A DNA stretch of 32,518 nt, from the NCBI GenBank assembly GCA_945873695.1, contig CAMCDX010000009.1, positions 1-32,518 of the forward strand, given 5' to 3'. This DNA comes from an uncultured Clostridia bacterium. Its GTDB lineage: Bacteria; Bacillota; Clostridia; Oscillospirales; Oscillospiraceae. Positions 1-16,703 of the stretch are shown piece after piece (position 1 is the first letter of the stretch; each line of letters starts with the position of its first letter). Below the pieces are notes generated by a model. The model did no database searches. It was not told the origin of the DNA and saw only the letters and a list, made by a program, of their open reading frames with translations. The position numbers and the translations under genes are program-made.

Positions 1-48
1 GTATTGTGAAGGCGTCGAAAAAGTCCGTCGGACTTTTTCGACAGCCTG
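1..48 (+). repeat. Right end of a MITE-like dispersed repeat (left part lies outside the window)
   Basis: Positions 1-49 are identical to 15815-15863, the right end of the 221-bp element at 15642-15862; base 49 is an A that can equally belong to the flanking hairpin. The segment contains a 14-bp stem with a one-base loop (GTCGAAAAAGTCCG and its complement, 14-42) and ends in CAGCCTG. It is followed at once by a terminator hairpin whose sequence is unrelated to the hairpin beside the second copy. A GTG-started open frame runs through it, but nothing suggests that it is translated. Confidence 0.8.
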
Positions 49-13386: not shown

Positions 13387-15570
13387 ATGAAGACGAAGAA
13401 ACTGTTGTCTCTGCTGCTGGCTCTGGTCATGATGTTCTCCCTGACCGTCACCGCCACCGCCGCGGAGACCGACGAGGACGACCTGAACGGCGCCATCGTG
13501 ATCCTGCATACCAATGACGTCCACGGCGCCATCTCCGAGTATGCCAAGGTGGCCGCTCTGAAGGAGACCTATGAGAAAATGGGCGCCTACGTCCTGCTGA
13601 TGGACGCTGGCGACTTCAGCCAGGGTGACCCCGTTGTCAGCATTTCCGAGGGCGCTACCGCTGTGGAACTGATGAACCTGGCCGGCTACGACGTGGCCAC
13701 CACCGGCAACCATGAGTTCGACTACGGCTACGCCAATCTGGCAAAGCTGGCCGGTGAGGCCAAGTTCCCCATCACCGCCGCCAATGTGCTCTACAAGGGC
13801 AAGACCGCCTTTGAGGAGAACGTGACCTTCACCAGCCCCACCGGCGTGAAGATCGGCGTCTTCGGTCTGGCTACCCCTGAGACCGCCACCAAGGCCAATC
13901 CCGCCAAGATCAAGGACGTGAAGATCCTGGCCGGCCAGTCCATGTTCGACTGCGCCCAGGCGCAGGTGGACGCCCTGAAGGCCGACGGCTGTGACGTCAT
14001 CATCTGCCTGGGCCACCTGGGCATCGACGCGGAATCCACCGGCAACCGCTCCATCGACCTGCTGGAGAAGGTGGAGGGCATCGACATTTTCATCGACGGC
14101 CACTCCCACTCTGACCTGAATGCCATCATGGCGGCTACCAACGACACCGGCATGGTGGGCGACACCCTGCTGACCTCCACCGGCACCAAGCTGGCCAACG
14201 TGGGCGTGGTGGTCATCGCCGCCGACGGCGCCGTCACCATGCAGTTCGCCACCGACGACCTGATCGTCACCCCTGACAAGACCGTTTCCGACCGCGCCGC
14301 CGCCATCCAGAAGGAGATCAACGACGATTACGGTACCGTGTTCGCCAAGACCGAGGTGGACCTGAACGGCGTGAAGGGTGAGGTCCGCACCGGCGAGACC
14401 AACCTGGGCGACCTGATCACCGACGCCCTGGTCTGGGGCGCCAAGGACGCCGGCATCAAGGTGGACGCGGCTGTCACCAACGGCGGCGGTATCCGCGCCT
14501 CCATCGCCAAGGGCGACATCACCAAGAAGGACATCAACACCGTCCTGCCCTTCGGCAATACTTTGAGCATCGTGAAGCTCACCGGCGCGGAGCTGCTGGA
14601 AGCCCTGGAGGCCTCCACCTACTGCACGCCTGAGAGCATCGGCGGCTTCCCCCATGTCTCCGGCATCGTGTTCACCGTGGATACCACCAAGGCCTTTGAC
14701 GCCGGTGACCTGTATCCCGGTTCCACCTATCACGCTCCCAAGAGCATCAACCGTGTGACGATCCAGTCCGTGGGCGGCAAGGCCTTCAATCCCAAGACCA
14801 CCTACACCATCGCCACCAATGACTTCATGGCCGCCGGCGGCGACACCTATTATGCCTTCAAGGCTGCTTCTGTCAACTACGACCTGGGTATCCCCATGGA
14901 TGAAGTGGTGATGGACTACATCAAGGAGTATCTGGACGGCAAGGTCACCTATGAGAACTATGCATATCCCGAGGGCCGCATTACCATCATTAAGGGCCTG
15001 CCCTTCACCGATGTGGCTGTGGACGCTCCTTACTATGACGCCGTGAAGTACGTCTACGAGAACGACATCTTCAAGGGCTTCACCGAGACCACCTTCGGCC
15101 CCGACAGCACCATGACCCGGGGTCAGATGGTCACCGTTCTGTGGCGGATGAACGGCTCTCCCGAGCCCAAGGCCGACTGCCCCTTCGGTGACGTGGCCGC
15201 CAATTCTCCCTTCCGCAAGGCCATCGCCTGGGCTGCTGAGAACGGCCTGACCAACGGCTACACCCCCACCACCTTCGTGCCGGGCCAGGCCATCTCCCGT
15301 CAGCAGTTCCTGACCATCCTGTACCGCTACGCCCAGTTCAAGGGCTATGACGTCTCCGTGGGCGAGAACACCAACATCCTCTCCTATGAGGACGCGGCCC
15401 AGGTGAGCGAGGTCTTCATCCCCGCTATGCAGTGGGCCTGCGGTTCCGGCGTGCTGGTGGCTGAAAAGACCCTGACCCCCACCGCCCCCGCCCTGCGCTA
15501 TCAGGTGGCGGAGTTCCTGGCGAACTTCTGCCAGAAGGTAGTCCCTGCTGAGACCGCCAAGGCTGCCTGA
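13387..15570 (+). CDS. Secreted, SLH-anchored 5'-nucleotidase / 2',3'-cyclic phosphodiesterase family protein
   Basis: This is a 727-residue surface enzyme. Residues 1-26 are a signal peptide (two Lys, then a Leu-rich core ending ATA-A). Residues 37 to about 290 are a metallophosphatase domain with the metal-site blocks LHTNDVHG, DAGDFSQGD, TTGNHEFDYG, CLGHLGID and DGHSHSD. Residues about 320-500 form the 5'-nucleotidase C-terminal domain (NGGGIRASIAKGD, LPFGNTL, YTIATNDFMAAGGD). From residue 540 there are three SLH repeats starting FTDVAVDAPYYD, FGDVAANSPFRK and YEDAAQVSEVFI, with TRGQ, SRQQ and LRYQ in the TRAE position. SLH repeats bind pyruvylated secondary cell-wall polymer, so the enzyme is probably held on the wall, where it releases nucleosides and phosphate. 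The exact substrate is not determined. Confidence 0.93.
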   Translation: MKTKKLLSLLLALVMMFSLTVTATAAETDEDDLNGAIVILHTNDVHGAISEYAKVAALKETYEKMGAYVLLMDAGDFSQGDPVVSISEGATAVELMNLAGYDVATTGNHEFDYGYANLAKLAGEAKFPITAANVLYKGKTAFEENVTFTSPTGVKIGVFGLATPETATKANPAKIKDVKILAGQSMFDCAQAQVDALKADGCDVIICLGHLGIDAESTGNRSIDLLEKVEGIDIFIDGHSHSDLNAIMAATNDTGMVGDTLLTSTGTKLANVGVVVIAADGAVTMQFATDDLIVTPDKTVSDRAAAIQKEINDDYGTVFAKTEVDLNGVKGEVRTGETNLGDLITDALVWGAKDAGIKVDAAVTNGGGIRASIAKGDITKKDINTVLPFGNTLSIVKLTGAELLEALEASTYCTPESIGGFPHVSGIVFTVDTTKAFDAGDLYPGSTYHAPKSINRVTIQSVGGKAFNPKTTYTIATNDFMAAGGDTYYAFKAASVNYDLGIPMDEVVMDYIKEYLDGKVTYENYAYPEGRITIIKGLPFTDVAVDAPYYDAVKYVYENDIFKGFTETTFGPDSTMTRGQMVTVLWRMNGSPEPKADCPFGDVAANSPFRKAIAWAAENGLTNGYTPTTFVPGQAISRQQFLTILYRYAQFKGYDVSVGENTNILSYEDAAQVSEVFIPAMQWACGSGVLVAEKTLTPTAPALRYQVAEFLANFCQKVVPAETAKAA

Positions 15571-15608
15571 GCCTTCGTCAAAACCCGGAACGGAACCTAT
15601 ATGAGAAA

Positions 15609-15641
15609 AGGAGACTCGGAGCATTGCTCCGAGTCTCCTTT
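15609..15641. terminator. Left copy of a duplicated terminator hairpin
   Basis: A 13-bp stem, GGAGACTCGGAGC, with loop ATT and its complement. This 33-bp stretch is repeated exactly at 15863-15895. On the plus strand only three T follow before the inserted element; on the minus strand TTTT follows. Confidence 0.85.
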
Positions 15642-15862
15642 CAGCTTGTCGAAAAACGTCTGCTTAAAGCAACTGGGTTGCATTTTGCAGGGGGAGTACG
15701 AGGGGGCGGGAGCCCCTTCGTGTGGAATCAAATGCCTGCAAAAAGCCTGCGCCAGCAGGCGTTTGCGCCGCGCAGCGGCAGATTTTCGGGCAGCAGAGCG
15801 GCCAGAAAATCGAGGTATTGTGAAGGCGTCGAAAAAGTCCGTCGGACTTTTTCGACAGCCTG
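15642..15862. mobile_element. 221-bp MITE-like element inserted at a terminator hairpin
   Basis: This non-coding element begins CAGCTTGTCGAAAAA; its right end read in reverse complement begins CAGGCTGTCGAAAAA (13 of 15 match). It is flanked by exact 33-bp duplications of the local terminator. The interior is a chain of hairpins: GCAAC/GTTGC (15669-15681), GGGGC/GCCCC (15703-15716), GCCTGC/GCAGGC (15745-15760), GCCGC/GCGGC (15767-15779), GATTTTC/GAAAATC (15781-15811) and a 14-bp stem at 15828-15856. The last 49 bp, counting the first duplicated base, recur at position 1. No open frame looks real, so a transposase would have to act in trans. The gap 15571-15905 holds nothing else. Confidence 0.65.
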
Positions 15863-15898
15863 AGGAGACTCGGAGCATTGCTCCGAGTCTCCTTTTTT
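15863..15898. terminator. Right copy of the duplicated terminator hairpin
   Basis: The same 13-bp stem and ATT loop as the left copy, followed on the plus strand by TTTTTT. On the minus strand it runs straight into the element end (TCAGGCTG), without a T-run. Before the insertion it presumably served both the nucleotidase gene (+) and proC (-). Confidence 0.85.
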
Positions 15899-15905
15899 AT
15901 GAGAT

Positions 15906-16703
15906 TTACATGCCTTGACTTTTCTCCCAGGCGGCGATGACGGCGTCCATGACGGCGCCCCGGAAGCCCGCCTCCTCCAGAGCCCGGATGCCCTGGATGG
16001 TGGCGCCGCCGGGGGAGCAGACGGCGTCCTTCAGCTGACCGGGATGCTTGCCGGTCTCCAGCATCAGCTTCGCCGTTCCCAGCATCATCTGGGCGGCGCT
16101 CTCCAGCGCCAGGGCCCGGGGCAGGCCGCAGGCCACGCCGCCGTCGGCCAGGGCCTCGATGAACAGGTCCGCGAAGGCGGGACCGCAGCCCGCCACGGCG
16201 CTGCCGGCGTCCATCAGTTTGTCCGCCAGGGGGGCCAGCCGGCCGGCGCCGGCCAGGGACTCCAGGAAGACCTTCTCCTCCGTCTTGGTGACATTCTCGC
16301 TGCAGTCATAGAACACCATGCCCTCGCCGATGGCGGCAGGGGTGTTGGGCATGATGCGGATGACGGGGTAATCCTTACCGGCCAGTTCCCGGATGCGGGG
16401 GATGGTCAGGCCCGCCGCCATGGACACCAGGATGAAGCGGCTCTCCCGCTTTTCCAGGATGGGGCAGATCTCCGCCATGACCTCCGCCATGTACTGGGGC
16501 TTCACCCCCAGGAAGATGAGGTTCGCGCTCTGGGCAATGGCCTCGTTGTCCGCCACCCGGCAGTCCAGCTCCTCCGCCAGGGCCTTTGCCTTCTCCACCG
16601 TCCGGTTGGCCAGGAACACCTGGTCGCTGGGCACGCTTTTGCAGGCCGCCCGGGCCAGGGCTCCGCCCATGTTGCCGGTGCCGATAAAACCTAAAGTTGC
16701 CAT
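15906..16703 (-). CDS. proC: Pyrroline-5-carboxylate reductase
   Basis: This 265-residue cytosolic enzyme reduces pyrroline-5-carboxylate to proline with NAD(P)H, the last step of proline synthesis. Visible marks are the N-terminal dinucleotide motif GFIGTGNMGGAL, the FLGVKPQ block near residue 64, RIMPNTPAAIGEG near residue 115, and the C-terminal signature region AGCGPAFADLFIEALADGGVACGL and SPGGATIQGI. The length is typical. AAAGGTGAT precedes the ATG. It is the last gene of a five-gene minus-strand operon that starts with proB. Its transcripts run into the duplicated terminator and element at 15609-15898. Confidence 0.95.
   Translation of the reverse strand: MATLGFIGTGNMGGALARAACKSVPSDQVFLANRTVEKAKALAEELDCRVADNEAIAQSANLIFLGVKPQYMAEVMAEICPILEKRESRFILVSMAAGLTIPRIRELAGKDYPVIRIMPNTPAAIGEGMVFYDCSENVTKTEEKVFLESLAGAGRLAPLADKLMDAGSAVAGCGPAFADLFIEALADGGVACGLPRALALESAAQMMLGTAKLMLETGKHPGQLKDAVCSPGGATIQGIRALEEAGFRGAVMDAVIAAWEKSQGM

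Follow-up and report, generated by a model that had tools for sequence, protein, structure and literature searches.

A MITE-like element in an Oscillospiraceae genome and its transposase-bearing IS1182-family relatives mostly lie between duplicated target hairpins

Target duplications are usually a short constant fixed by the transposase, which makes the surroundings of one small segment in the window (the whole 32,518-nucleotide stretch of DNA analysed here, from an uncultured Oscillospiraceae bacterium) difficult to explain: how does a complete terminator hairpin come to stand on both sides of an insertion? Comparison of the window with itself finds an exact 33-nt direct repeat at 15609-15641 and 15863-15895, and inside each copy a perfect inverted repeat with a one-base centre. 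The segment between them, 15642-15862, is 221 bp long and non-coding, and its terminal 15 bases match at 13 positions (CAGCTTGTCGAAAAA against the reverse complement CAGGCTGTCGAAAAA). This re-reading agrees with the initial annotation, which had described the segment, its ends and its exact flanking hairpins in the same terms. The features of the locus, and of a second copy at the start of the contig, are as follows.

15609-15641, no strand: left hairpin copy, a 33-bp target-site duplication of terminator type (exact direct and inverted repeat)
15642-15862, + strand: MITE-like element of 221 bp (35 distinct full-length copies in its own genome)
15642-15656, + strand: left terminal inverted repeat, CAGCTTGTCGAAAAA, closest to the IS right-end type
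15828-15856, no strand: subterminal hairpin GTCGAAAAAGTCCGTCGGACTTTTTCGAC, overlapping the right end (inverted repeat; terminator-like score on the - strand)
15848-15862, - strand: right terminal inverted repeat, CAGGCTGTCGAAAAA as read on the - strand, equal to the start of the left end of congeneric IS copies in genome G025
15863-15895, no strand: right hairpin copy, with its T-run kept for + strand transcripts (terminator-like score on the + strand)
1-48, + strand: second copy of the element, right end only, cut by the contig start (sequence reading; end match C9:34-48)
49-72, no strand: a different hairpin, AAAAGAGCGCGAAGGCGCTCTTTT, with a stem of 10 pairs, adjoining the second copy

The IS right-end type referred to here has AAAAACC, as do other copies of the 221-bp element and the IS right end at L198. 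Folded as a single strand, 15600-15900 is much more stable than its shuffled versions (z = -15, 100 shuffles), and the two duplicated hairpins are also able to pair with one another. An Rfam scan of 15400-16100 returned just two matches, both so far under their family thresholds that no known RNA family is indicated in this interval.

The genome of the window (138 contigs, 1.77 Mb, 78% complete) is rich in this element. BLAST gave 79 matches from 40 scored among 180 candidates, and at least 35 distinct full-length copies were recognised at 97-100% identity, one of them matched from base 3; since many contigs start or stop within the element, the true number exceeds 35. The end pattern CAGNYTGTCGAAAAA gave 189 matches, 92 forward and 97 reverse, as against 0 and 1 for the reversed control; one of the 189, at C10:8465, is probably due to chance, as it is neither followed by the element nor adjoined by a stem. 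Being short and non-coding, with many copies and with terminal inverted repeats in common with insertion sequences, the element has the properties of a MITE.

At 27 of the 35 full-length copies, the element lies between in-register duplicates of a terminator-like hairpin that is specific to the locus, whereas mismatched pairings of left and right flanks gave such a result once in 1190. A strong stem ends at the element in 32/35 left flanks and 33/35 right flanks, compared with 12 of 1000 random positions in the fetched loci. Together these figures exclude chance. They also bear out the suggestion made from the window that this is a mobile element with a whole stem-loop as its target duplication, and that the hairpin is no fixed part of it: the hairpin differs from locus to locus, as does the one at 49-72 beside the copy at 1-48. 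The check that the initial annotation had named, on the flanks of other copies and on empty sites, thus found site-specific hairpins duplicated at 27/35 copies, and neither a general lack of duplication nor a single hairpin accompanying every copy.

Eight of the 35 copies lack a clean in-register duplication. The loop is the sole difference between the two hairpins at L017, a two-base insertion in the loop sets the copies apart at L034, and at L006 they differ at three loop positions and one arm position; the right hairpin copy is truncated at L012, left and right hairpins are different at L002, L004 and L029, and one copy (L022/L033) has no left hairpin. Pairs with near-identical arms and unlike loops were seen at L021, L017, L006 and L034, the loop at L021 being exactly inverted (CTT versus AAG). 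At L031 (G000:C122, 1001-1276) two tandem copies of the element are preceded and separated by one and the same hairpin, and the contig ends within the second copy; this is probably a second insertion into a hairpin that had already been duplicated.

Half copies at contig ends, that at window 1-48 included, adjoin a strong stem in 16 of 17 cases (13/13 and 3/4), the one half copy with no hairpin at its end being L037. Assembly breaks within the element (window 1-48; L204, L206-L216, L037-L040) leave the genome fragmented and copies hidden. They fall 48-54 bases into the element at 13 ends and 89-114 bases in at four, and the element explains the contig breaks at terminators in this assembly.

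Outside its own genome, the element appears to be confined to close relatives: matches were found in 20 of 99 genomes, its own included, all of one genus (with at most eight candidates scored per genome). Most of the full or long congeneric copies that were read lie, again, between two copies of a locus-specific hairpin (e.g. L041, L043, L044, L045, L062); at L060 the two hairpins differ from each other, and the right end is missing from L046 and L064. Other repeats of the genus (L052-L055, L058, L059) carry positions ~49-95 of the element (GGGGGAGTACGAGGGGG...) joined to a different tail, which ends near AAAAGTAACGGCAT or a close variant.

The same genus provides a candidate source of transposase. 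The IS1182 transposase model NF033551 matched in 39 of 86 congeneric genomes, above its cut-off in 6, and contigs of G025 and G029 present a hairpin, then CAGGCTGTCGAAAAAGTC (or CAGACTG...), then an IS1182-type frame; the first 18 bases of the right end of the window element are those of the IS left end in G025. Those congeneric IS copies whose ends come nearest are truncated where their contigs stop, and one of them contains an in-frame stop; the partial frame L081, from the G025 copy with ends nearest those of the window element, scores 138.6 bits with NF033551 over 136 aa and matches PF05598 only. In the window's own genome (78% complete, 138 contigs) there were 0 matches to NF033551 and 0 to PF13751, and no autonomous copy with the same ends was found there, those with nearly the same ends being the contig-cut copies of congeners. 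The 221-bp element is related to insertion sequences of the IS1182 family and is MITE-like and non-autonomous, a kinship that goes beyond the initial annotation; it would be mobilised in trans by an IS transposase, though none was matched in its own 78%-complete genome. The congeneric IS left end has a hairpin similar to 15828-15856, upstream of the transposase frame. This left-end hairpin (window 15828-15856; L114, L115, L116) has A and T runs and overlaps the IS end; perhaps it shields the transposase frame against transcription from outside.

Hairpin duplication reaches beyond the 221-bp element to transposase-bearing members of the family, as is supported by a transposase scan of named genomes, from which the best 80 of 534 loci were kept (ten from one O. 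valericigenes record). CAG/CTG ends were required; 11 loci without a recognisable end pair, 16 cut at a contig edge and one with an N-run (L135) were dropped, leaving 52 evaluable loci among these best 80. Of these, 39 have a hairpin duplication, exact or near-exact and 20-36 bp long, compared with 0 of 2652 mismatched flank pairs; six have two different hairpins, five have one hairpin and two have none. It is important to note that the sites are independent but the IS types are not, since several loci share one genome. Loci without a clean duplication (8/35 copies of the MITE, 13/52 IS loci), which mostly adjoin hairpins, may be recombinants. In G123, where 15 IS1182-type loci were read, six show a complete or nearly complete duplication of a locus-specific hairpin (L100, L101, L102, L105, L107, L108), L111 is partly flanked by a duplicated hairpin, and the others have no clear duplication.

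Among the scanned loci, duplications occur in Bacillus, Lacrimispora, Butyrivibrio, Thermoflavimicrobium, Oscillibacter and a Chloroflexota MAG, and at 5 of the 16 plasmid IS loci read they occur on plasmids of Lactococcus, Peribacillus, Sutcliffiella, Staphylococcus arlettae and Aminobacter. The first five plasmid loci comprise three with a duplication (L217, L219, L220), one with two different hairpins (L218) and one without convincing ends (L221); the further eleven comprise two with a duplication (L237, L239), seven with short repeats, and L238 (ISEfa7) and L245, without clear ends. The record of L221, NZ_CP154629.1, is filed as an Acetoanaerobium noterae plasmid; a size of 2.6 Mb seems excessive for a plasmid, and the record may represent a chromosome. 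Full-length transposases at L099, L163, L190 and L217 exceed the 270-bit cut-off of NF033551 (443.8, 458.2, 399.4 and 433.3 bits, respectively), and in all four PF05598 (DUF772), PF13751 and PF01609 (DDE) are above cut-off.

A tree was built from 52 selected transposases, namely those of 36 of the 80 loci, of 15 plasmid loci and of L248. In it, all rows with duplicated or flanking hairpins fall to the same side of a branch with support of 98/97, a side of 43 rows that includes one row without ends, one without hairpins and one that is unclear. On the other side are the seven short-repeat members, the unclear L245, and L248, an IS1182-like frame beside fabI that is taken to be IS1272; the tree program warned that long branches (L239, L244, L246, L248 and others) may join falsely. 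Hairpin duplication was absent in the seven distant IS1182 elements examined (L240-L244, L246, L247), which have short repeats; the behaviour is therefore not a property of the whole family, and what the initial annotation described at one locus is common to a clade.

Empty sites give a view of the target before insertion. Joined flanks of the insertion on Lactococcus plasmid pUCCL626B matched 36 plasmid records, 34 of them over at least 80% of the query, and among the three empty plasmid sites that were read, two have exactly one 20-bp hairpin and the third has one copy with a changed loop base. We also read 17 congeneric loci, namely 5 of the 11 fetched for the window site and 4 for each of three other sites. 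At 15 of the 17, all but L255 and L259, a hairpin follows the orthologous gene and there is no element. At the place orthologous to the window site, L223 and L224 have a single hairpin and no element, and the hairpin of G039 has nearly the duplicated sequence. At most of these congeneric loci the hairpin sequence has diverged, so this evidence is positional.

The geometry of the duplication follows that of the hairpin. Its length averages 28.0 bp in 27 MITE copies (15-40) and 25.8 bp in 39 IS copies (20-36), and at IS sites it rises with the span of the hairpin (r = 0.94, n = 38). The cuts are symmetric about the hairpin axis, with a foot offset of zero, at 22/27 MITE sites and 35/39 IS sites (L135 removed). 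Across 66 reconstructed sites, bases at symmetric positions are complementary in 50-61 sites at each of ten positions inside the cut; outside it the figures are 44 and 42 at the two nearest positions and 19-30 further away. Shape is not the sole signal, since the same sites favour A at -2, -1 and +1 and either A or G at +2, a bias to be expected where the cut lies in the A/T tract at a terminator's foot; A and T tracts are both absent from 4 of the 66, a hint that the hairpin outweighs the tract. Locus-specific hairpins, paired arms and the length correlation thus point to a target recognised by pairing, but only in part, given the A/R preference at the feet. Apparently, the duplication arises because the enzyme reads the folded shape of the DNA and not its sequence.

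We consider it probable that the 221-bp element is a non-autonomous member of an IS1182 clade whose DDE transposase inserts at folded hairpins by way of the 5' feet of a cruciform. The transposase would recognise folded DNA, with near-perfect and mostly terminator-like hairpins as targets; the two 3' ends of the element would be joined to the two 5' feet of the extruded cruciform, one per strand; and repair of the long 5' single strands would leave a direct copy of the whole hairpin on each side. Extrusion is the best-fitting route, since duplication length tracks the hairpin, the cuts are mostly symmetric and the outcome is the one drawn by Wan et al. (2017); the unusual route by an extruded hairpin that the initial annotation had suggested is in this respect favoured. 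Template switching, which it had named as an alternative, was considered together with a fixed-stagger model and is not favoured given the length correlation and the symmetry of the sites; nothing was found that calls for it.

Rather unlikely, in our estimate, is a version in which no cruciform forms and a transposase dimer sits on the two A/T-tract feet of a linear palindrome, cutting with a very wide and variable stagger. Such a dimer would account for the symmetric preference for AA^AR at both cuts, and it dispenses with the extrusion that the cruciform model has to suppose. However, cut spacing varies between 15 and 40 bp and, in IS sites, tracks hairpin length, and sequence bias in the arms is low once the A/G-rich first bases are passed (no more than 0.23 bits from +4 to +10).

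Single strands readily form hairpins. The element might then insert into a hairpin on single-stranded DNA, for example on the lagging-strand template, with the second copy arising by replication or template switching, and the loop differences in a few hairpin pairs, the exactly inverted loop in L021 and a mild skew in orientation (T-tract side longer in 12, A-tract side in 8 and ties in 7 for the MITE; 23, 11 and 5 for the IS) would all be in keeping with this. Yet an attack on both strands would predict a direct, complete and symmetric duplication, which is what is seen, and we hold the single-stranded route to be improbable. It is hardly credible that the flanking hairpins belong to the element itself or arose by recombination between terminators that were already there: two different hairpins do occur at 6/52 IS loci and 3/35 MITE copies (L002, L004, L029), but elsewhere the hairpin varies between loci while left equals right within a locus (mismatched flanks, 1/1190 and 0/2652), and empty sites with a single hairpin contradict it.

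Insertion by the cruciform route may have consequences for the genes upstream. In the window the left hairpin copy has lost most of its T-run and the right copy has kept its own, and the reverse is expected on the opposite strand. Since the distal copy retains its run of T (or of A, for the other direction), transcripts of both strands could still be terminated. A terminator scan scored the right hairpin copy on the + strand; on the - strand it scored two sites inside the element and not the left hairpin copy, so that termination preserved in both directions is not borne out by the scan and is put forward as a proposal.

The closest precedent is IS1272/TnSha1, which likewise has an IS1182-family transposase and selects hairpins, those of terminators among them, by their structure, the target sequences being little conserved (in the parts of PMC4923244 and PMC5678879 consulted). 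In the same parts of these papers, some IS1182 members are stated to target palindromes, by Furi et al. citing Siguier 2015 and by Wan et al. citing Siguier. The two systems differ in outcome. The hairpin is duplicated here, whereas IS1272/TnSha1 is described as partially deleting it with no target duplication (Furi 2016, PMC4923244, in part); for IS1272 a hairpin-deleting route was proposed, and duplication of the hairpin via the 5' feet was drawn as a hypothetical pathway b (Wan 2017, PMC5678879, in part). Replacement of that kind, with the hairpin lost and no duplication, does not describe the present elements, which duplicate it at 27/35 MITE and 39/52 IS loci. L248, taken to be IS1272, has different ends (GAGTCTGGGACATAAA) and lies outside the hairpin-duplicating group of the tree. 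ISCfr1 and rhizobial and Azospirillum relatives have an IS1182-named or IS1182-like transposase and a similar size; unlike the hairpin-duplicating group, outside which they fall, they have repeats of ~4-6 bp by our own end assignment.

Insertion at palindromic DNA is also known for IS elements at REP palindromes or attC (IS110/IS1111 and others). Their targets are particular repeat sequences, in contrast to the present elements, for which the hairpin sequence changes from one locus to the next. Long direct repeats are given for IS1182 in tables of the ISfinder type, so that the long duplications may not have escaped curators. Bacterial MITEs share shortness, lack of coding sequence, terminal inverted repeats and high copy number with the 221-bp element; terminator-like ones are mentioned in the parts of the account consulted (PMC10969869), and duplication of a whole target hairpin is not. 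A search for reports of such duplication in the open-licence literature, which leaves most subscription journals outside, found only pathway b, in the sections of Wan et al. consulted.

The elements described here are a counterpart to the stem-loop replacement of IS1272, and provide many sequence-level cases of a pathway that, in the parts of that source consulted, had been drawn as a possibility. The length of the duplication is set by the folded target. More tentatively, and with somewhat less confidence than we would need to expect it, a large DDE clade, mostly in Bacillota with a Chloroflexota MAG and an alphaproteobacterial plasmid, may use DNA shape as an address, attacking both 5' feet of extruded terminator cruciforms and copying the whole hairpin such that the upstream gene on either strand keeps a complete terminator. 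This would suggest a mild lifestyle in a gene-dense genome, with insertion at terminators and one terminator left per direction. The clade can serve to test whether cruciforms are read by transposases in vivo and, if the proposed route is true, such insertions would be natural records of the sites at which hairpins are extruded in living cells.
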